From Pseudomonadales bacterium (GTDB lineage Bacteria; Pseudomonadota; Gammaproteobacteria; Pseudomonadales; Azotimanducaceae), in contig JAJECH010000025.1 in assembly GCA_022822135.1 (NCBI GenBank), forward strand, positions 186,001 to 250,000: DNA of 64,000 nt, written 5' to 3'. A program made the translations under genes and the position numbers. This document shows, piece after piece, positions 400-9,402 of this stretch; the first letter of the stretch is position 1; each line of letters opens with the position of its first letter. The notes below the pieces were generated by a model. The model was given only the letters and a program-made list of their open reading frames with translations, made no database searches and was not told where the DNA came from.

Positions 400-2364
400 T
401 TGCGCGAAAGCACTAGAAAATCAAGTAGATATATTGTTGTTGCCCTACTAACAATTCTTGTTGGCGGGCATGCTTCCGCCGAGGAAGAAGAAGAATGGCC
501 TGAGGAGTGGTATCAGCCATTCAAAACAGCGTCACAAATTGGCTTAACCAATTTCAGCGATAGCCCAATACTCCACTCTGGAAAAATCGAACACCCGCAC
601 TTCCAGAATCTACCGCCAGTCGAGCAACGCCTACCGAAAGACCCAATCGTCGTATACCCGCTCAAGGAAACAGGACACCATGGCGGGACCGCACGTCTAA
701 CGAATCACGATCTTTGGCAGTTTTTTAACTGGGAAGCGGCGTTCACGATTTCCGCCGACATGCGAACATTCTTCCCTAACTTAGCGGAGTGGTTCGAGCT
801 TAGTGAAGATGGTCTAAGTCTCACCATCAAGCTTCGGGAAGGATTACGGTGGTCAGATGGCGAACCACTAACAAGCCACGATTTCGCATTCACATTCAAC
901 GATCTGTGGAATAACGATGAATATTCACCGGAAGCGTACAAGATCGTTGACGGTTCTAGGGTTGTGGTCGTTGACGACCTTCTATTTCGCTACGACTTTC
1001 CTACGCCACGGCCGTTATTTATCAATTTTGTAGCGCAGTATGGCGATTTCATGATCGACCCGTCTCACTACATGAAGCGTTTTCATCCCTACTACACCAC
1101 GGAAGAAGAACTCGATCAACGGATCAAGGATTACGAAGCGCTGAATTGGACACAACTGGTCAACGATATTCGTCGTGAGGGATCAGACGACAGCGTTGAG
1201 GTGCCAACCCTACGTGCGTTCAAGTTGGTCGAACGTTCGTCCATGAAACGCAAATACATCCGCAATCCCTATTACCCGAAAGTAGATCCAGAAGGTCGTC
1301 AGCTACCGTACATCGACCAGATCAATATGGAAACGGTTGAAAACGCCGAAATCATGGCTGCCATGGCGTCTACTGCACAGGTGGACTTCGCAGCATTTGC
1401 ACTCAGAACACAGGACATTCCGCTCTTGAAGCTAGGAGAACGCAATGGCGCTATCAAAGTGCACATATGGCAGCGCCTCCACTCGAGCGATGTTGCGATT
1501 CAACCAAATTACAACTACGAAGACGAGAGATACCAAGAGCTCTATTGGGATATTCGCTTTCGTGCCGCACTTTCTCATGCGATCAACCGCGACGAGCTAA
1601 ACCAGATCATCTACTTCGGTCGCGGCTTCCCGCGTCAAGTCACCGTACATCCAACCAGCTCGTTCTACAAGGAAGAGTGGGAGAAAAGGTATCTCGAATA
1701 TCGACCTGAATACTCAAATGAGCTACTTGATGAGATCGGTCTCATTGATGTTGACGGCGATGGCTACCGCGAGTTCGCGGACGGATCACGTCTCACTATC
1801 ACGCTGGAGTTTTACGACTTCGAGACCCCCAAAGGAATTACGATGGAACTCGTTCAGGAGTATTGGCGGCAGATTGGAATTGATTTGAGACTAAAGCTAG
1901 TTGACGGTAACTTGCAGCGTGAGCGCGCCGTTGCTGGCGAGATGCAGATGACCCTCTGGCATGCGGACCGCGTAACCGATGTGCTGTTTCCATTGTTCCC
2001 AGATTGGTGGGTGGCTCGATCGATCAGTTGGGATCGTGGAATGTGGAATGACTGGTCGCGATGGTACATGAAATCAGGCGAAGCAGGGGTCGAACCACCA
2101 GCCGTCATGCGCCAACTACAAGATTGGGTCGATGAGATGTGGGTTGCGATGGATGAGGACGAGCGCCACGTCATTGGTCAGAATATCCTCGCTACCGGGT
2201 CTGAGTATCTGTGGGTTATCGGAACAATCGGTCTAGCGCCGCACCCTGTTGTAGTTTCATCGCGCCTTAAAGGTGTGCCGCTGAAAGGCATCTGGGGTTG
2301 GGATAACAGATGGACGCTGGCGAACCATCCCGCGTCGTGGTATCTCGAAGAATCTGCGCCTTAG
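400..2364 (+). CDS. ABC importer periplasmic solute-binding protein (SBP_bac_5 family)
   Basis: A 654-residue extracytoplasmic binding protein of the peptide/nickel/oligosaccharide class (DppA/OppA fold). It starts with TTG at 400, preceded by GAAGGGGAG at a suitable distance. Residues 1-27 form a signal peptide (basic start, hydrophobic core, cleavage after HASA), followed by an acidic EEEEEW stretch. The body shows family features such as LSEDGLSLTIKLREGLRWSDG-type text near residue 140. At about 650 residues it is longer than E. coli DppA (about 535), a size seen in Opp-family proteins that bind oligosaccharides as well as peptides. It is first of five co-directional transporter genes. The ligand cannot be read from sequence. 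Confidence 0.92.
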   Translation: MRESTRKSSRYIVVALLTILVGGHASAEEEEEWPEEWYQPFKTASQIGLTNFSDSPILHSGKIEHPHFQNLPPVEQRLPKDPIVVYPLKETGHHGGTARLTNHDLWQFFNWEAAFTISADMRTFFPNLAEWFELSEDGLSLTIKLREGLRWSDGEPLTSHDFAFTFNDLWNNDEYSPEAYKIVDGSRVVVVDDLLFRYDFPTPRPLFINFVAQYGDFMIDPSHYMKRFHPYYTTEEELDQRIKDYEALNWTQLVNDIRREGSDDSVEVPTLRAFKLVERSSMKRKYIRNPYYPKVDPEGRQLPYIDQINMETVENAEIMAAMASTAQVDFAAFALRTQDIPLLKLGERNGAIKVHIWQRLHSSDVAIQPNYNYEDERYQELYWDIRFRAALSHAINRDELNQIIYFGRGFPRQVTVHPTSSFYKEEWEKRYLEYRPEYSNELLDEIGLIDVDGDGYREFADGSRLTITLEFYDFETPKGITMELVQEYWRQIGIDLRLKLVDGNLQRERAVAGEMQMTLWHADRVTDVLFPLFPDWWVARSISWDRGMWNDWSRWYMKSGEAGVEPPAVMRQLQDWVDEMWVAMDEDERHVIGQNILATGSEYLWVIGTIGLAPHPVVVSSRLKGVPLKGIWGWDNRWTLANHPASWYLEESAP

Positions 2365-2391
2365 ACGCGTAGCCGACTAGCGGAAACAGGA

Positions 2392-3375
2392 ATGCTTCAT
2401 TACGTCATAAAGCGCATGGGCACTATGGTGCTGACGCTTGCATTCATTTCCGTGATTGTCTTCGTTGTTATCCAGCTCCCGCCAGGCGACATCGTAACTT
2501 CCACACTCGAACGCATGGAAGCGTCGGGCATGCAAGCGTCCGATGAATACGTACAAAACCTAAGAGCACGCTACAACCTCGACAAACCTCTCTATCTTCA
2601 GTATTTAAACTGGATTTTCAATTTCGTACAAGGTGATCTCGGCTATTCATACATCTATTCGAAACCAGTAAACGAGCTAGTCTGGGAGCGCCTCGGCTAC
2701 ACGCTTCTCATAACAATTTCGGCCGTGATATTCACGTGGGTAGTCGCTGTACCCTTCGGTATCTATTCGGCGGTACGGCAATACTCTATCGGCGACTACT
2801 TCGTGACCGTGGTCGCCCTTGTCGGACTCGCCACCCCTAATTTCCTCCTCGCATTGCTCGTGATGTTCTTTGCGTGGGAATGGTTTGGAATATCGATCGG
2901 TGGGTTGTACTCAATGGAATTCCGAGATCAACCGTTCTCAATTCCGAAACTCTTCGACCTACTGTCGCGGCTATGGATTCCAGGAAGCGTCGTTGGAATG
3001 GGCGGCACCGCGGTGACCATGAGAATCCTGCGCGCGAACCTTCTCGACGAACTCAATAAACCTTATGTCGTTACGGCTCGAGCGAAGGGTGTAAAACCTA
3101 TCAAGCTCATCTTCAAATATCCGTTACGAATCGCGATCAACCCATTCATCAGCACATTAGGTCTGCTCCTTCCAACCTTAATTTCCGGCGAAGCGATCGT
3201 CTCGATGGTTCTCAACCTACCAACCACGGGTCGGATGCTACTGCAAGCATTGCTCGCGCAGGATATGTACCTGGCAGGTAGCTTCCTCATGTTGCTCGCG
3301 ATTCTGACGGTCGTCGGAATGTTGATTTCAGATTTGATACTTGCTTGGTCTGACCCAAGGATTCGATATGAGTGA
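2392..3375 (+). CDS. ABC importer permease, DppB/OppB type
   Basis: A 327-residue inner-membrane permease of the BPD_transp_1 family. The N-terminal helix (about residues 9-30) is followed by the usual periplasmic segment with YLQYLNWIFNFVQGDLGYS, then five more hydrophobic segments. The cytoplasmic EAA-type coupling loop that docks the ATPases is visible as ARAKGVKPIKLIFKYPLR near residue 230. Length matches DppB/OppB. It lies 27 bp after the binding-protein gene and overlaps the next permease by 8 bp, so it belongs to one operon and should pair with that protein as the transmembrane heterodimer. Confidence 0.93.
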   Translation: MLHYVIKRMGTMVLTLAFISVIVFVVIQLPPGDIVTSTLERMEASGMQASDEYVQNLRARYNLDKPLYLQYLNWIFNFVQGDLGYSYIYSKPVNELVWERLGYTLLITISAVIFTWVVAVPFGIYSAVRQYSIGDYFVTVVALVGLATPNFLLALLVMFFAWEWFGISIGGLYSMEFRDQPFSIPKLFDLLSRLWIPGSVVGMGGTAVTMRILRANLLDELNKPYVVTARAKGVKPIKLIFKYPLRIAINPFISTLGLLLPTLISGEAIVSMVLNLPTTGRMLLQALLAQDMYLAGSFLMLLAILTVVGMLISDLILAWSDPRIRYE

Positions 3376-4522
3376 AGCAGTCCTCGAGCGACCTCAACCG
3401 ATCACTACTGAGACCCAAGAAGAACTCAATTTTCTAACGCCTCGTCAGCTCGCGTGGCGTCGCTTCAAACGACACAAACTCGCTTTGATAAGTGGCATCG
3501 TCCTGATCGTCATGTATTTAGTGACCGGCTTCGCGGAGTTTTTTGCGCCCTACGCAACTACGTCTCGAAATGTTGGCGCAATCAACGCGCCGCCGATGAA
3601 CGTACGCTTTTTTGAGCATGATGGGACATTTCACTTGCGGCCGTTCGTATATGGCTATGACTTACACATTAACGAAGAAACTTGGGCACGCGAGTACACA
3701 GAGAACCCAGAAAAGATCTATCCAATACGATTTTTCGCACGCGGCGAAACCTACGAGCTTTGGAATCTAATTGAAGGAGATATTCACTTCTTCATTGCCG
3801 AAAACGACGAAGGCGAAGGCTACATTCATTTCTTGGGTACTGATCAGTTAGGTCGAGACGTATATTCCCGTGTGATTTACGGCGGTCGTATTTCCCTGTC
3901 GATCGGCATGCTTGGCATTGGTCTGACGCTGTTCCTCGGTGTCCTATTCGGCGGCTTCGCGGGTTACCTCGGCGGTTGGGTCGATCGCATCGTTCAACGC
4001 ATGATCGAGGTGCTGCAATCGTTACCAACGTTACCGTTGTGGATGGCGCTTACTGCGGCATTACCAGCCCATTGGAGTTCACTCCGAATCTACTTCGGCG
4101 TCACGATCATTCTTTCGCTATTCGGTTGGACCGCACTAGCGCGCCAGGTCCGGGGACGCTTTCTCGCGTTGCGAAATGAGGACTTCGTGATCGCAGCACG
4201 GCTTATTGGCAGCGGTCAGAATCGGATCATTTTTAAACACATGATGCCGAGCTTCCTAAGTCACACCATCACGACGGCAACTCTTGCGGTTCCTGGCGTA
4301 ATCTTGGGGGAAACCGCACTTAGCTTCCTGGGAATCGGGATTCGACCGCCCATCGTCAGCTGGGGTGTGCTGATGGAACAAGCGCAAAACTATCAAGTGA
4401 TATCGATGACGCCCTGGATTCTGTATCCAGGACTCTTTGTCGTAATCGCTGTGATGGCATTCAACATACTCGGCGATGGCTTGCGAGACGCTGCTGACCC
4501 CTACAACATAGGCGGTCAATGA
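3368..4522 (+). CDS. ABC importer permease, DppC/OppC type with large periplasmic insertion
   Basis: A 384-residue permease. I chose the ATG at 3368, which overlaps the upstream stop; an in-frame TTG at 3341 would add nine residues lying inside the previous gene. TM1 is about residues 38-58. The conserved FLGTDQLGRDVYSRVIYGG segment that precedes TM2 starts near residue 155, so about 75 extra, acidic and aromatic residues (about 75-150) are inserted in the first periplasmic loop relative to DppC. The EAA coupling loop is ARLIGSGQNRIIFKHMM. The insertion probably contacts the binding protein. Its stop overlaps the next ATG by 4 bp. Confidence 0.93.
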   Translation: MSEAVLERPQPITTETQEELNFLTPRQLAWRRFKRHKLALISGIVLIVMYLVTGFAEFFAPYATTSRNVGAINAPPMNVRFFEHDGTFHLRPFVYGYDLHINEETWAREYTENPEKIYPIRFFARGETYELWNLIEGDIHFFIAENDEGEGYIHFLGTDQLGRDVYSRVIYGGRISLSIGMLGIGLTLFLGVLFGGFAGYLGGWVDRIVQRMIEVLQSLPTLPLWMALTAALPAHWSSLRIYFGVTIILSLFGWTALARQVRGRFLALRNEDFVIAARLIGSGQNRIIFKHMMPSFLSHTITTATLAVPGVILGETALSFLGIGIRPPIVSWGVLMEQAQNYQVISMTPWILYPGLFVVIAVMAFNILGDGLRDAADPYNIGGQ

Positions 4523-5442
4523 AAATGGACAACATTCTTGAAATCCGCAACTTGGGTGTCCGTTTTAAAACTGATACGGGCATAACCAATGCACTGAATG
4601 ACATCAATTTCGATGTCCCGCGCGGCAAGGTCACCGCGATTGTCGGTGAGTCTGGTTCTGGCAAATCCGTTACCGCGAACTGCATCATGCGTCTGCTGCA
4701 ACCTCCCGGCGAGATCGTCAGTGGATCCATTCAGTTCAATCCTTCACGAGCCGAACCATTCGATGTCGTCGCCATTAAGGACCGCGACCCTCGAATCTAC
4801 GATCTTCATGGTGGACTCATCAGCATGGTGTTCCAAGAACCCATGACTGCGCTCTCGCCAGTTCATCGCGTTGGAAACCAGGTCGCAGAAGCGATCCTGT
4901 GTCATCGGGATGTATCGAAAGATGCAGCGATGGCGGAAGCACACGACATGCTGAGTCGGGTGGGCATTCCTGACATTGACACGCGTATCAATATGTATCC
5001 GTTTGAGTTTTCCGGAGGGATGAGGCAGCGTGTGGTCATCGCGATGGCTCTCGTGTGCAATCCTGAAGTGCTTATTTGCGATGAACCAACCACTGCGCTG
5101 GACGTGACGATTCAGGCTGAGATCCTGACGCTCATAAAACACCTGCAGGAGGAGTTGAGCAACTCGATCATTTTCATCACTCACGACATCGGAATCGTCG
5201 CACAGATAGCGGACTATGTCGTAGTCATGTATCAGGGGCGAGTTTTAGAGATAGGCACCGTCAGACAGGTTTTGAAGGATCCTCTGCATCCATACACCAA
5301 AGGGTTGCTCGCGGCTATTCCTGGAAATGTGCCTAAGAACGTAAGACTATCAACGATCGCAACCGCCGTCGGCGATGCGGACATTACGACTCCGTACCCG
5401 CTAAAGGAAGTTGGGGACGGACGATTGGTGAGTCTACCTTGA
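4519..5442 (+). CDS. ABC importer ATPase, DppD/OppD type
   Basis: A 307-residue cytoplasmic ATPase energising the importer. Walker A is GESGSGKS near residue 39, the signature is FSGGMRQR near residue 165, and Walker B with D-loop is LICDEPTTALD near residue 185; the switch His is in ITHDIG. The C-terminal HPYTKGLL piece typical of oligopeptide ATPases is present, but the remaining tail is short. Start ATG at 4519 overlaps the permease stop (ATGA); a second ATG two codons on is possible. It should form a heterodimer with the next ATPase. Confidence 0.94.
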   Translation: MKMDNILEIRNLGVRFKTDTGITNALNDINFDVPRGKVTAIVGESGSGKSVTANCIMRLLQPPGEIVSGSIQFNPSRAEPFDVVAIKDRDPRIYDLHGGLISMVFQEPMTALSPVHRVGNQVAEAILCHRDVSKDAAMAEAHDMLSRVGIPDIDTRINMYPFEFSGGMRQRVVIAMALVCNPEVLICDEPTTALDVTIQAEILTLIKHLQEELSNSIIFITHDIGIVAQIADYVVVMYQGRVLEIGTVRQVLKDPLHPYTKGLLAAIPGNVPKNVRLSTIATAVGDADITTPYPLKEVGDGRLVSLP

Positions 5443-7140
5443 GTGCTTGCGATCATGAATGACGACGACCTGATTCTCAAAGTCCGGCATCTCAGCAAGA
5501 CTTTCGATGAGCACGTCGCTCTTCGAGATGTGTCGTTCGACCTTAAAAAAGCCGATACGCTCGGAGTTGTGGGGGAATCAGGCTCAGGGAAAACGACGCT
5601 TGCGCGATGCATTTTGCGTGCGATTGATCCAGATAGTGGCGGGACGGTAGAGTTCAACAGCGACCAAGGTGGCTGGGTTTCTCTCTCATCTTTGCGTCAC
5701 AAGGAACTGGTGCCTTTGCGGAAAGAGATGCAGATGGTCTTTCAAGACCCCTACTCATCACTAAATCCGCGAATGACCGTTAGACAGATCATTGAGGAAC
5801 CGTTGATCATTCATGACGAGGGGAATAGCAACGAGCGACTTGAGAGGGTTCGCGAAATGCTCGATCTCGTTCAACTAAGCCAGGATTCACTAACGCGATA
5901 CCCTCATGCCTTTTCTGGCGGTCAACGACAACGCATCGGAATCGCTCGCGCGCTCATCTTGAACCCGAATCTCGTTGTATGTGATGAGACCGTTTCTGCT
6001 TTAGACGTCTCGGTTCAAGCACAAATCATCAACCTACTTGAAGATCTACAGAAGACGCTCCAGCTCACGTACATTTTTGTCGCACATGACTTGGCGGTCG
6101 TCCAACACATTTGCAACAACGTTCTCGTCATGCACAACGGGGTTGTAGTTGAGAGAGGTGATGTCGACTACGTGTTCGACCACCCGCAACGCAACTACAC
6201 GAGACTCCTACTTTCTGCGATCCCCTCACCCGACCCAGATATTCGTATGACACCCGAAAATCGAGCGATCTTAGAAGAGCCTGAACCAGTAACGAACGGC
6301 TATGGACTCGTTGAGGGACCGGTCTGGCACGACGATTACGGTTTGATGTTTAGTGACGTCATTTTCGGGGGCGTGTATTCTGTCAACGACCTTAAGGAAG
6401 TTGAGCCCGTTTTTGAACACCGGCGGGGCATCGGCGGCATGGCCGTTCACGCTGAAGGTGGCTTGGTTGTAAGCGGAAAGAACATATCTCTTAAGAGATT
6501 CGGTGAATCCGAGAGCATCCTGCTATTGGACCGGGACCCCGACAACGGGAACGTTGGGTACAACGACTTAACCACGGATACAGCGGGACGCATCTACGTG
6601 GGTTCACTCGGCTCGAGTCCTGTATTCGATGATGGGCTCGAACCTCGAGCTGGGAACCTATACGTCATCGATCTCGATGGCAACAGCCGAATCGTCTCGG
6701 AAGATGTGCAACTCACTAACGGTCTTGGCTTCAGCCCAAATGGACGAGTGCTTTACCACTCTGATTCACGACGCGGGCAGATATTTCGATATGAAGTCGT
6801 ACGTAACGGCGACCTAAAACAGCGAGAGGTTTTTCACGAATTCGAAGACGGTGCACCGGATGGGCTAGCGGTTGCAGAAGATGGTTCGATCTGGGTTGCA
6901 AACGCTGGTGCAGGCGGCGTTGCCGTGATAGACCCGGACGGCAGTCAGCGTTCGTTTATCTCGATACCCGTTCCGATGTGTACGAGTGTGTGTTTCGGTG
7001 GCGCCGGTTTGAGAACGTTGTATATCGTCTCAGGTTCCAATGGAGTCGACGGCGATCGACGTGGCGGCGTTTATCGATACGAAGCCGAGGTAAGCGGCAT
7101 TCCGATACCGCTCGCGCAAATCACGGTACCTGCTTCTTAG
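5443..7140 (+). CDS. ABC ATPase (DppF/OppF type) fused to SMP-30/gluconolactonase-like domain
   Basis: One 565-codon frame carries two domains. Residues 1-262 are a complete OppF-like ATPase: Walker A GESGSGKT (44-51), signature FSGGQRQ (157-163), Walker B LVVCDE (177-182), with the usual DEP as DET. Residues about 285-565 read as a six-bladed SMP-30/LRE propeller: EGPVW (E291), NGLGFSPNG (N426) and PDGLAV (D473) match the Glu/Asn/Asp metal-binding residues of SMP-30 and gluconolactonase, which hydrolyse aldonolactones. The lactonase part replaces most of the C-terminal tail of ordinary OppF. Start may be GTG 5443 or ATG 5455. A lactonase docked on the cytoplasmic face of an importer suggests a sugar-acid or lactone-bearing substrate (inference). 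Confidence 0.88.
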   Translation: MLAIMNDDDLILKVRHLSKTFDEHVALRDVSFDLKKADTLGVVGESGSGKTTLARCILRAIDPDSGGTVEFNSDQGGWVSLSSLRHKELVPLRKEMQMVFQDPYSSLNPRMTVRQIIEEPLIIHDEGNSNERLERVREMLDLVQLSQDSLTRYPHAFSGGQRQRIGIARALILNPNLVVCDETVSALDVSVQAQIINLLEDLQKTLQLTYIFVAHDLAVVQHICNNVLVMHNGVVVERGDVDYVFDHPQRNYTRLLLSAIPSPDPDIRMTPENRAILEEPEPVTNGYGLVEGPVWHDDYGLMFSDVIFGGVYSVNDLKEVEPVFEHRRGIGGMAVHAEGGLVVSGKNISLKRFGESESILLLDRDPDNGNVGYNDLTTDTAGRIYVGSLGSSPVFDDGLEPRAGNLYVIDLDGNSRIVSEDVQLTNGLGFSPNGRVLYHSDSRRGQIFRYEVVRNGDLKQREVFHEFEDGAPDGLAVAEDGSIWVANAGAGGVAVIDPDGSQRSFISIPVPMCTSVCFGGAGLRTLYIVSGSNGVDGDRRGGVYRYEAEVSGIPIPLAQITVPAS

Positions 7141-8162
7141 TCGTTAACGGTCAAATTCTGCGTCGCAAGCCAATCGCGATCAAATAGTCGGGACTGATAT
7201 TTGTTACCCGTGTCACACAACATCGTTACGACGGTGTGACCCGGCCCAAGTTTTTTTGCCACCTCAATCGCGCCACAGATATTGATGCCACTACTCGACC
7301 CCAGAAACCAACCTTCTTCCCGCAATATCCGATACACCAAATCGACCATCTCTTGATCGGGGATTTGCACCGCCCAGTCGACTCGCGCTTCCGCGAAGTT
7401 ATCGGTAACTCGGCTATTGCCGATACCCTCGGTAATCGACGGTCCTTCGCTCATTACCGTCTCACCAGTCATCACGTAGCTATGCAGTGCGCTGCCCATG
7501 CAATCTGAAAGAACGATTTGAATGTCCTTGCTCTGTTCTTTAAGAAATTGCGATACGCCCGCGATCGTGCCCCCAGTACCGACTGAACAGACAAATGCTG
7601 AAACCTCGTGATCTGTATCTCGCCAAATTTCCGGACCCGTTGACTCGTAGTGAGCAAGCGTATTCGCAGTATTGTCAAACTGATTAGCCCAGATGGCGTC
7701 CTGCAGCGTTGCCGCGTAACGTCCAGCTTGTTTCTGGTAGTTGTTGTCGTCCTTGTAAGGCACGGTCGGAACGACACGTACTTCTGCGCCAAGTGTTCGC
7801 AGAATGTCCACTTTTTCAGGCGACTGGTTGTCGGGCATGTAAATAACGCATTTGTAGCCTCGTGCGTTGCAGATGTGGGCAAGGCCGATCCCGGTATTAC
7901 CTGCAGTACCTTCAACTACTGTTCCACCAGGTTGGAGCTCGCCGCTTTTCTCTGCTTCTCGAATCATCCACCAAGCAGCTCGGTCTTTGACAGACCCTCC
8001 GGGGTTTAAGAACTCCGCTTTGCCATATATCTCGCATCCCGTACTTTCTGAAGCTGCTTTTAACCGAATCAAAGGTGTATTACCTATCGATTCAACGAAT
8101 CCTGCCTGATGTGCCGCCACTGTATCTACGTATGAAAAATAGCGGAAAATTGTAGAGACCAT
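7137..8162 (-). CDS. Cysteine synthase family PLP enzyme (CysK-like)
   Basis: A PLP-dependent beta-replacement enzyme, most likely O-acetylserine sulfhydrylase making cysteine from O-acetylserine and sulfide. SIGNTPLIRL opens the fold; NPGGSVKDR holds the Schiff-base lysine; GTAGNTGIG is the substrate/phosphate loop; GTGGT and SSGIN also fit. The open frame extends to an ATG at 8216, one base from the divergent gene at 8218, which would leave no room for promoters. I prefer the ATG at 8162 (341 residues); a GTG at 8120 is also possible. The 3' end overlaps the ABC-lactonase gene by 4 bp, tail to tail. A cystathionine beta-synthase-like role is the main alternative. Confidence 0.88.
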   Translation of the reverse strand: MVSTIFRYFSYVDTVAAHQAGFVESIGNTPLIRLKAASESTGCEIYGKAEFLNPGGSVKDRAAWWMIREAEKSGELQPGGTVVEGTAGNTGIGLAHICNARGYKCVIYMPDNQSPEKVDILRTLGAEVRVVPTVPYKDDNNYQKQAGRYAATLQDAIWANQFDNTANTLAHYESTGPEIWRDTDHEVSAFVCSVGTGGTIAGVSQFLKEQSKDIQIVLSDCMGSALHSYVMTGETVMSEGPSITEGIGNSRVTDNFAEARVDWAVQIPDQEMVDLVYRILREEGWFLGSSSGINICGAIEVAKKLGPGHTVVTMLCDTGNKYQSRLFDRDWLATQNLTVND

Positions 8163-8217
8163 CGAACGAACAGACGGATTAGCAGCTTGCTTCGAATAGC
8201 ACCGACTCAGTTGCATA

Positions 8218-9402
8218 ATGGCGCGCGTAGTTCAGACCTTTCAGGAACACTTTGTGGCTGAAAACGCCCTTCTAAACGCAGGGGTAAACCCTAAGAGACT
8301 TGACGTACTCCGGCAACGTGCGCGGAAGGAAATCGACGATGGATTGCTCCATGCCGCGCAGTATGCCGTCGCAAAAGACGGCGAAGTCATCTGGCAGGAG
8401 TCACTAGGAACCGCGCGTGACGATTCGCTTATTCCGGTGTTTTCAAGCACGAAAGCCGTCATGTCAGCAGCAGCGTGGTTGGTCATCCAAGACGGCCTAT
8501 TGGATATTAATGAAACCGTGGCGGACATCATTCCAGAATTCGCAACGAACGGCAAAGAGTCGATCAAGGTCGTGCAGTTATTTCTGCATATATCCGGATT
8601 TCCGATGGCACCCTTTCGACCGATCGAGTGGGACGATAGGGAGTCACGTCTGTCCAGGTTTTCGAGTTGGCGTCTCAACTGGGATCCTGGTTCGAAATTT
8701 GAATACCACCCCACATCTAGCATGTGGGTTATCGCGGAAATTGTTGAACGAAAGACCAGCATGGACTTTCGCGAGTACATCAGAACCCGAATCGTTGAAC
8801 CCCTCGGACTCGAAGACTTTTTCGTCGGGTTGCCAGCGAGCGAAAACCATCGAGTATTGACCCTAGAGCATGTTGGCGACCCACTTACGAGTGAGGACTA
8901 TGCCCGTCTAGGGTTACCCGAGCCGCCTGTCACAGAAGTGACGGAAGATGCAATCCTCTCGTTTAATCAACCTGACATCCGAGCAGTCGGCGTCCCTGGA
9001 GGCGGTGGCATCATGACAGCAGCCGCGATGACTTTGTTCTATCAAGGGCTGTTGCACGGAGGCTCGCGTGACGGCGAGACTGTTTGGCAGCGTGAAACCC
9101 TTGACTTTGCGCTCAAGGTGATCAGCGGTGACTATGTCGATCCTTTAATGGGACATCGCGTGAATCGAGCGCTAGGAGTCGTCATAGCTGGAAACGAACA
9201 GCAAAATCTCAGAGGTTTCGGCCACTCTAACTCGTCAACCGCATTCGGACATGGTGGCGCTGGTGGGCAAATAGCTTGGGCTGACCCTGCTTCAGGTCTT
9301 TCCTTCTGTTACCTTACCAACGGTCATGATCGAAATCCAATGCGCATGGGTTCCCGCGGAGTCTCACTTTCAAGCAAGGCAGCTTCGCTATTGGAGAACT
9401 AA
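8218..9402 (+). CDS. Serine hydrolase of the beta-lactamase/penicillin-binding fold
   Basis: A 394-residue member of PF00144 (class C beta-lactamases, EstB-type esterases, D-aminopeptidases). The nucleophile motif SxxK is S76-S-T-K79 in PVFSSTKAVMS. The second-motif tyrosine is probably Y163 in FEYHPTS, and a C-terminal GHGGAGGQIAWADP provides the HxG third motif. There is no signal peptide, which favours an intracellular esterase or transferase over a secreted beta-lactamase. A similar gene, cut by the window edge, starts at 63598. Confidence 0.88.
   Translation: MARVVQTFQEHFVAENALLNAGVNPKRLDVLRQRARKEIDDGLLHAAQYAVAKDGEVIWQESLGTARDDSLIPVFSSTKAVMSAAAWLVIQDGLLDINETVADIIPEFATNGKESIKVVQLFLHISGFPMAPFRPIEWDDRESRLSRFSSWRLNWDPGSKFEYHPTSSMWVIAEIVERKTSMDFREYIRTRIVEPLGLEDFFVGLPASENHRVLTLEHVGDPLTSEDYARLGLPEPPVTEVTEDAILSFNQPDIRAVGVPGGGGIMTAAAMTLFYQGLLHGGSRDGETVWQRETLDFALKVISGDYVDPLMGHRVNRALGVVIAGNEQQNLRGFGHSNSSTAFGHGGAGGQIAWADPASGLSFCYLTNGHDRNPMRMGSRGVSLSSKAASLLEN

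Follow-up and report, generated by a model that had tools for sequence, protein, structure and literature searches.

An OppF-type importer ATPase continuing in frame into an SMP-30-family propeller: a conserved fusion, found so far in one genus, that probably arose by operon landing and gene merger

ABC importers are generally described as taking up their substrates in unaltered form, metabolism being a separate process. The locus considered here, in a 64,000-nucleotide stretch of a Pseudomonadales genome (the window), raises the question of whether an importer motor subunit can be permanently joined to a hydrolase and, if so, how the two came together and whether they act on the same compound. 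A single open frame of 565 amino acids, counted from a GTG, encodes an OppF-type ATPase followed by an SMP-30/gluconolactonase (SGL) propeller, as the sequence-only reading of this DNA had proposed, and both the ABC_tran and SGL domains score above their Pfam cutoffs (Table 1). A partial oligo_HPY match at residues 236-269 reaches 25.2 bits, below its cutoff of 27.1. Since the related fused proteins L010-L012 begin with MSNDDDL and the window has MNDDDL at the ATG at position 5455, this is probably the true start rather than the GTG; residue numbers nonetheless follow the 5443 start, as in the earlier reading. The importer context that had been claimed is also borne out: the fused gene is the fifth in an operon of the order SBP-OppB-OppC-OppD-OppF/SGL, a complete importer set at positions 400-7140. 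The explanation that we favour, and consider probable from sequence comparison, is that the protein is the OppF subunit of a complete Opp/Dpp-like importer with a permanent C-terminal metal-dependent hydrolase domain of the SMP-30 family, acquired when the operon landed beside the hydrolase gene and the two genes then merged.

Table 1. Features of the importer operon, the fused gene and its 3' neighbours (positions in the window, residues of the fused protein)
Feature	Position	Strand	Basis and remarks
SBP_bac_5 (Opp4A-like) substrate-binding protein, operon gene 1	400..2364	+	Pfam 204.7 bits; Opp4A best NCBIfam match, below cutoff
OppB-type permease	2392..3375	+	Pfam BPD_transp_1; Opp4B best NCBIfam match, below cutoff
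OppC-type permease, start probably later	3341..4522	+	BPD_transp_1 and OppC_N; Opp4C best NCBIfam match, below cutoff
OppD-type ATPase without C-terminal Cys cluster	4519..5442	+	ABC_tran, oligo_HPY; tail free of Cys
OppF-type ATPase fused to SMP-30/SGL propeller	5443..7140	+	Open frame, Pfam; start more likely ATG 5455
ABC_tran domain, residues 27-184	5521..5994	+	Pfam (104.7 bits) and motifs
19-residue linker, residues 267-285, between AIPSPDPD and GYGL	6241..6297	+	Equal length in six species
SGL propeller, residues 291-531	6313..7035	+	Pfam (169.5 bits, cutoff 26.3); metal ligands E291, N426, D473; N374
CysK-like PLP enzyme, convergent, 4-base overlap with SGL	7137..8216	-	PRK10717 500.8 bits, cutoff 387
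Serine hydrolase, class C beta-lactamase family	8218..9402	+	Pfam Beta-lactamase

Our comparison with other genomes confirms that the fusion is real and old, and that it is found so far in one genus. A contig scan matched at least 594 stretches and confirmed at least 578, and among the best 80 loci taken from it a single frame crosses both domains in five (L009-L013). By their contig coordinates these belong to the five other congeneric genomes that, with our own, carry the full-length fused frame, six species in total (six of the 18 genomes of the genus: G000, G156, G113, G155, G153 and G007). The earlier reading had allowed for a stop or frameshift within residues 262-290 and for a fusion without homologues; the linker is instead open in the assemblies of all six species, and five relatives have the same in-frame fusion. 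Between AIPSPDPD and GYGL the linker is 19 residues long in every one of the six proteins, with varying letters. The fused protein of L013 (L013:7983-9737) has an 18-residue insert in its propeller that is absent from the other five. In ten pairs among five species (the window, L009, L010, L012 and L013; L011 excluded), dN ranges from 0.009 to 0.087 for the ATPase and from 0.048 to 0.185 for the propeller, while dS for the ATPase either exceeds 1.4 or could not be computed in every one of the ten, and for the propeller either exceeds 2 or could not be computed in nine (0.88 in the tenth). Low dN with mostly saturated dS indicates that the frame has been maintained over a long divergence. The five relatives are metagenome-assembled genomes, which can carry errors, and one might suppose that two genes were joined by misassembly or a frameshift; mostly saturated synonymous sites in conserved domains, and a junction that reads through in the genomes of six species, assembled separately and diverged in their DNA, leave that reading practically no probability, and we reject it.

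In the trees of both domains the fused proteins cluster together. Built by a quick method with SH-aLRT support and no bootstrap from alignment A1 (62 sequences chosen from the open reading frames of the 80 loci, including 33 of the 46 standalone SGL loci), they place the fused rows on one branch both for SGL (39 rows, SH-aLRT 99) and for the ATPase (29 rows, SH-aLRT 99). Under strict thresholds, which would miss a remote independent fusion, wider sampling returned three full-length fusions in 150 genomes of the family, two in 390 of the order (threshold 1e-116) and one in 369 of the class (1e-110), all in this same genus. Two other candidates were discarded. An 876-residue frame listed for a double ATPase plus SGL in G140 would have been a second independent fusion, and the fetched DNA (L120) proved to hold two separate frames. 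L020 (622 aa) and L029 (621 aa) have SGL in their second half, preceded by about 340 residues without a Pfam match; these extensions are presumably chance open frames ahead of an SGL gene and were excluded from the count of fusions.

The ATPase half has the strings GESGSGKTT (from residue 44), FQDP (100), SGGQRQR (158), LVVCDE (177), SALD (185) and VAHD (213). We take these to include the Walker A motif (44-52), the Q-loop (100-103), the signature SGGQ (158-161), a Walker B ending in D181-E182 and the H-loop histidine H215, which lies just past the ABC_tran domain; a D-loop is also present. Of 101 near-invariant positions in 23 unfused OppFs, only 2 differ in the fused ATPases, and this half is therefore probably an active F subunit. 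Named OppF/DppF models of NCBIfam did not reach their curated cutoffs (the best, PRK11308, gave 289.7 bits against 408). With the E. coli proteins (OppF and DppF of OppBCDF and DppBCDF; 8z21_D and 8z1v_D) the protein shares all ABC motifs, the SBP-B-C-D-F gene set and the best Foldseek matches. PhnK, an ABC ATPase solved bound to C-P lyase (7z15), is also among the best matches of this half, but that complex consists of separate chains without an importer, whereas the fusion comes with a full importer operon.

The claim that the OppF-like ATPase is complete needs to be divided: the nucleotide-binding domain is complete, and the C-terminal Cys region found in E. coli DppF is missing. In E. coli, DppD and DppF are reported to carry [4Fe-4S] domains at their C-termini, without which the complex falls apart (PMC12136057). 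A Cys tail was sought in both OppD and OppF of the window and found in neither; unlike its E. coli Dpp counterpart, OppF here continues into the propeller, which sits in the sequence where the C-terminal [4Fe-4S] domain would be. Such a domain is not universal in the family, since M. tuberculosis DppD is described as lacking it (PMC12136057) and the Cys region is missing from 13 of the 23 unfused OppF rows, including all eight gammaproteobacterial ones; the other ten, from Bacillota and Chloroflexota, have four or five Cys there. The OppDs of eight relatives (L009, L010, L012, L013, L016, L017, L021 and L031) are also free of the tail, a count from which a ninth, L028, was excluded because the script did not locate its OppD tail. 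This importer group thus seems to do without [4Fe-4S] domains and, as unfused gammaproteobacterial OppFs and the OppDs of relatives are equally without the Cys tail, its loss probably preceded the fusion. Should the protein take the place of the F subunit in the transporter, as we would expect, the propeller would be held on the cytoplasmic face of the importer.

An AlphaFold2 model of the fused protein, made with a 62-row alignment, has a mean pLDDT of 87.2 and a pTM of 0.78, and the values of 88-92 at residues 271-290 hint at an ordered junction between the ATPase and the propeller; the remaining four models average 77.8-80.1. In Foldseek searches, the two halves of the model find E. coli OppF (8z21_D) and the xylonolactonase of Caulobacter crescentus (7plc, 7plb). 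It could be asked whether a free propeller is still produced, by proteolysis or by initiation at a Met in the linker (codon 6247), with the full-length protein being only part of the output. This Met (6247-6249) is found in all six fused proteins, in a position occupied by Leu in the eight gammaproteobacterial unfused OppFs. However, one ancestral substitution could account for it, and inspection of the six sequences found no purine-rich ribosome-binding sequence 5' of the codon, which makes a separate product improbable.

The metal site of the propeller half is intact. The ligands proposed in the sequence-only reading, E291, N426 and D473, are where they were said to be and are conserved as Glu, Asn and Asp in all six fused and all 33 standalone SGL rows of alignment A1, and N374 is likewise kept in 39 of 39. 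They correspond to Glu18, Asn154, Asp204 and Asn103 of human and mouse regucalcin/SMP30 (3g4e, 4gn7), in which Asn103 is reported as substrate-binding (PMC3551927). Arg101 of regucalcin, however, is replaced by Gly (in NVGYND), and for this reason identification as SMP30 or gluconolactonase proper is not supported; Arg101 is reported to bind substrate analogues, and other related enzymes are described as lacking it too (PMC3551927). The best solved match by sequence is xylonolactonase XylC of C. crescentus (7plb, 7plc; 2.8e-30), reported to be an Fe2+ hydrolase (PMC8529709), with which the three metal ligands align; XylC is a free enzyme, and its pocket reads RPND against GYND in the fused propeller. 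The fold matches SMP30 and XylC chains with a Foldseek TMt of 0.84-0.86. Of 92 positions near-invariant in standalone SGLs, the fused SGLs differ at 6, mostly by mild changes, and in a leave-one-out comparison the 33 standalone rows show between zero and nine departures, a single row exceeding six. These departures count against full functional equivalence and allow for shifted or relaxed constraint with the metal ligands intact. Since no other SGL match in the own genome exceeds 31% identity, the genome's only member of this subfamily is apparently the fused one, whose propeller may well stand in for the missing free enzyme.

Free, overlapping and fused states all occur in relatives and allow the sequence of steps to be inferred. 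L017 (also G150 and L123) has the genes in the order SBP-B-C-D-F-SGL, with OppF and SGL separate and overlapping by one base in TAATG. The ATPase tree puts L017 nearest to the fused set and L016 next (both with SH-aLRT 92, short of the 95 mark). For SGL, the fused proteins group with L017 and the pair L014 and L019 in a nine-row set (SH-aLRT 99) whose inner order is unsettled. Elsewhere in the genus, SGL stands as a free gene 3' of a GsiA/YejF-type double ATPase in G040, G063 and G140, and no close SGL was found at E 1e-40 in eight of the 18 genomes, one of which (G154) is 77% complete. SGL of this subfamily occurs in 51 of the best 80 loci, 18 of which have an Ldh_2 gene, within 1.5 kb of SGL and divergent from it in 13; none of the 29 loci without SGL has one, a weak control given that many are from other phyla. 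The CysK-like gene accompanies SGL in 20 of the 51 loci and the serine hydrolase in 17, all of these neighbour counts being lower bounds because several loci lie on short contigs. Our genome has the order DLH (+), double ATPase (+), Ldh_2 (-), SBP-B-C-D-F/SGL (+), CysK-like (-), serine hydrolase (+). Comparison of these neighbourhoods points to SGL as a member of an older cluster; in the simplest reading, the opp operon landed between Ldh_2 and SGL, and oppF merged with SGL afterwards. The hydrolase would originally have been a free enzyme of a catabolic gene cluster, as it would still be in relatives; the opp operon would have come to adjoin its 5' side, between SGL and the divergent Ldh_2; and OppF and SGL would first have overlapped by one base, as in L017, and then become one frame in the ancestor of the six species. 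The double ATPase of our genome (535 aa, L118:11549-13156) lies two genes 5' of SBP with no permease gene directly adjoining; in five relatives the SGL gene comes directly after a homologue of it.

Landing beside SGL provides a simple non-adaptive route to the fusion, and two more specific versions of our favoured explanation need to be weighed. According to the first, relocation of the operon put oppF beside SGL, the stop codon was lost, and the halves work as they did before, uncoupled, the tether fixing only their ratio. SGL in relatives occupies the same neighbourhood without the opp operon, and importer and SGL are no more than loosely associated elsewhere. Among 147 unfused genomes of the family, a close OppF (at least 60% identity) is present in 31 and SGL in 74; both occur in 22, OppF alone in nine, SGL alone in 52 and neither in 64 (odds ratio 3.0, Fisher p 0.014, uncorrected for relatedness or genome completeness). 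Presence was read by eye from a table sorted by E-value, leaving out two weak SGL matches, in G055 (partial, with stops) and G071 (44% identity). In the three single-contig genomes that have both, the genes lie 167 kb (G062), 314 kb (G037) and, by coordinates on a 5.1-Mb contig, 3.5 Mb (G078) apart. These counts and the wide spacing indicate that the two are associated and not dependent on each other. On the other hand, the in-frame state has persisted with constant linker length in six species whose dS is mostly saturated, and no descendant with the genes split again was seen among the 18 genomes of the genus. We put such an uncoupled fusion at slightly under an even chance.

In the second version, which builds on the sequence-only reading, a compound bearing a lactone or ester is brought in by the importer and opened on emergence by the tethered propeller; this would trap the compound and begin its catabolism, with Ldh_2 acting at a later step. 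Such vectorial, uptake-coupled hydrolysis would work like group translocation, the compound being opened on leaving the channel. The complete importer operon in the window is consistent with it, as are the recurrence of Ldh_2 and hydrolases as neighbours of SGL and the fact that the same SGL directly follows a different Opp-type double ATPase in L014, L015, L019, L035 and L040, an adjacency that favours a genuine connection to Opp-type uptake. However, the nine of 31 unfused importer genomes without a close SGL, and the 52 with SGL and no importer, count against this coupling, which we consider rather unlikely. The most speculative part of the explanation we favour is that the propeller acts on the compound taken up by the importer or on something derived from it.

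No description of an ABC ATPase-SGL fusion was found in the open-access literature, as judged by titles and the openings of abstracts. The nearest precedent we found is DrSOD of Deinococcus radiodurans, in which an SGL propeller is also C-terminal on an unrelated enzyme, although the partner there is a Cu/Zn-SOD and not a transporter ATPase; its report describes it from one genus only, with weak activity on 2-coumaranone (PMC12362111). A conserved fusion of a motor subunit to a metabolic hydrolase is a concrete case in which to ask whether import and a catabolic reaction can be physically linked. For an uncharacterised SMP-30 subfamily, which in our samples is mainly from Pseudomonadota, it further hints at a functional connection and supplies a candidate importer for the pathway concerned. 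Immediately 5' of the window, a group of genes in the same genome (L118:1-9473) brings together a YcaO cyclodehydratase with an N-terminal winged helix, a Rieske oxygenase, a tryptophan halogenase and a protein with a fatty-acid-desaturase domain, and resembles a natural-product cluster.
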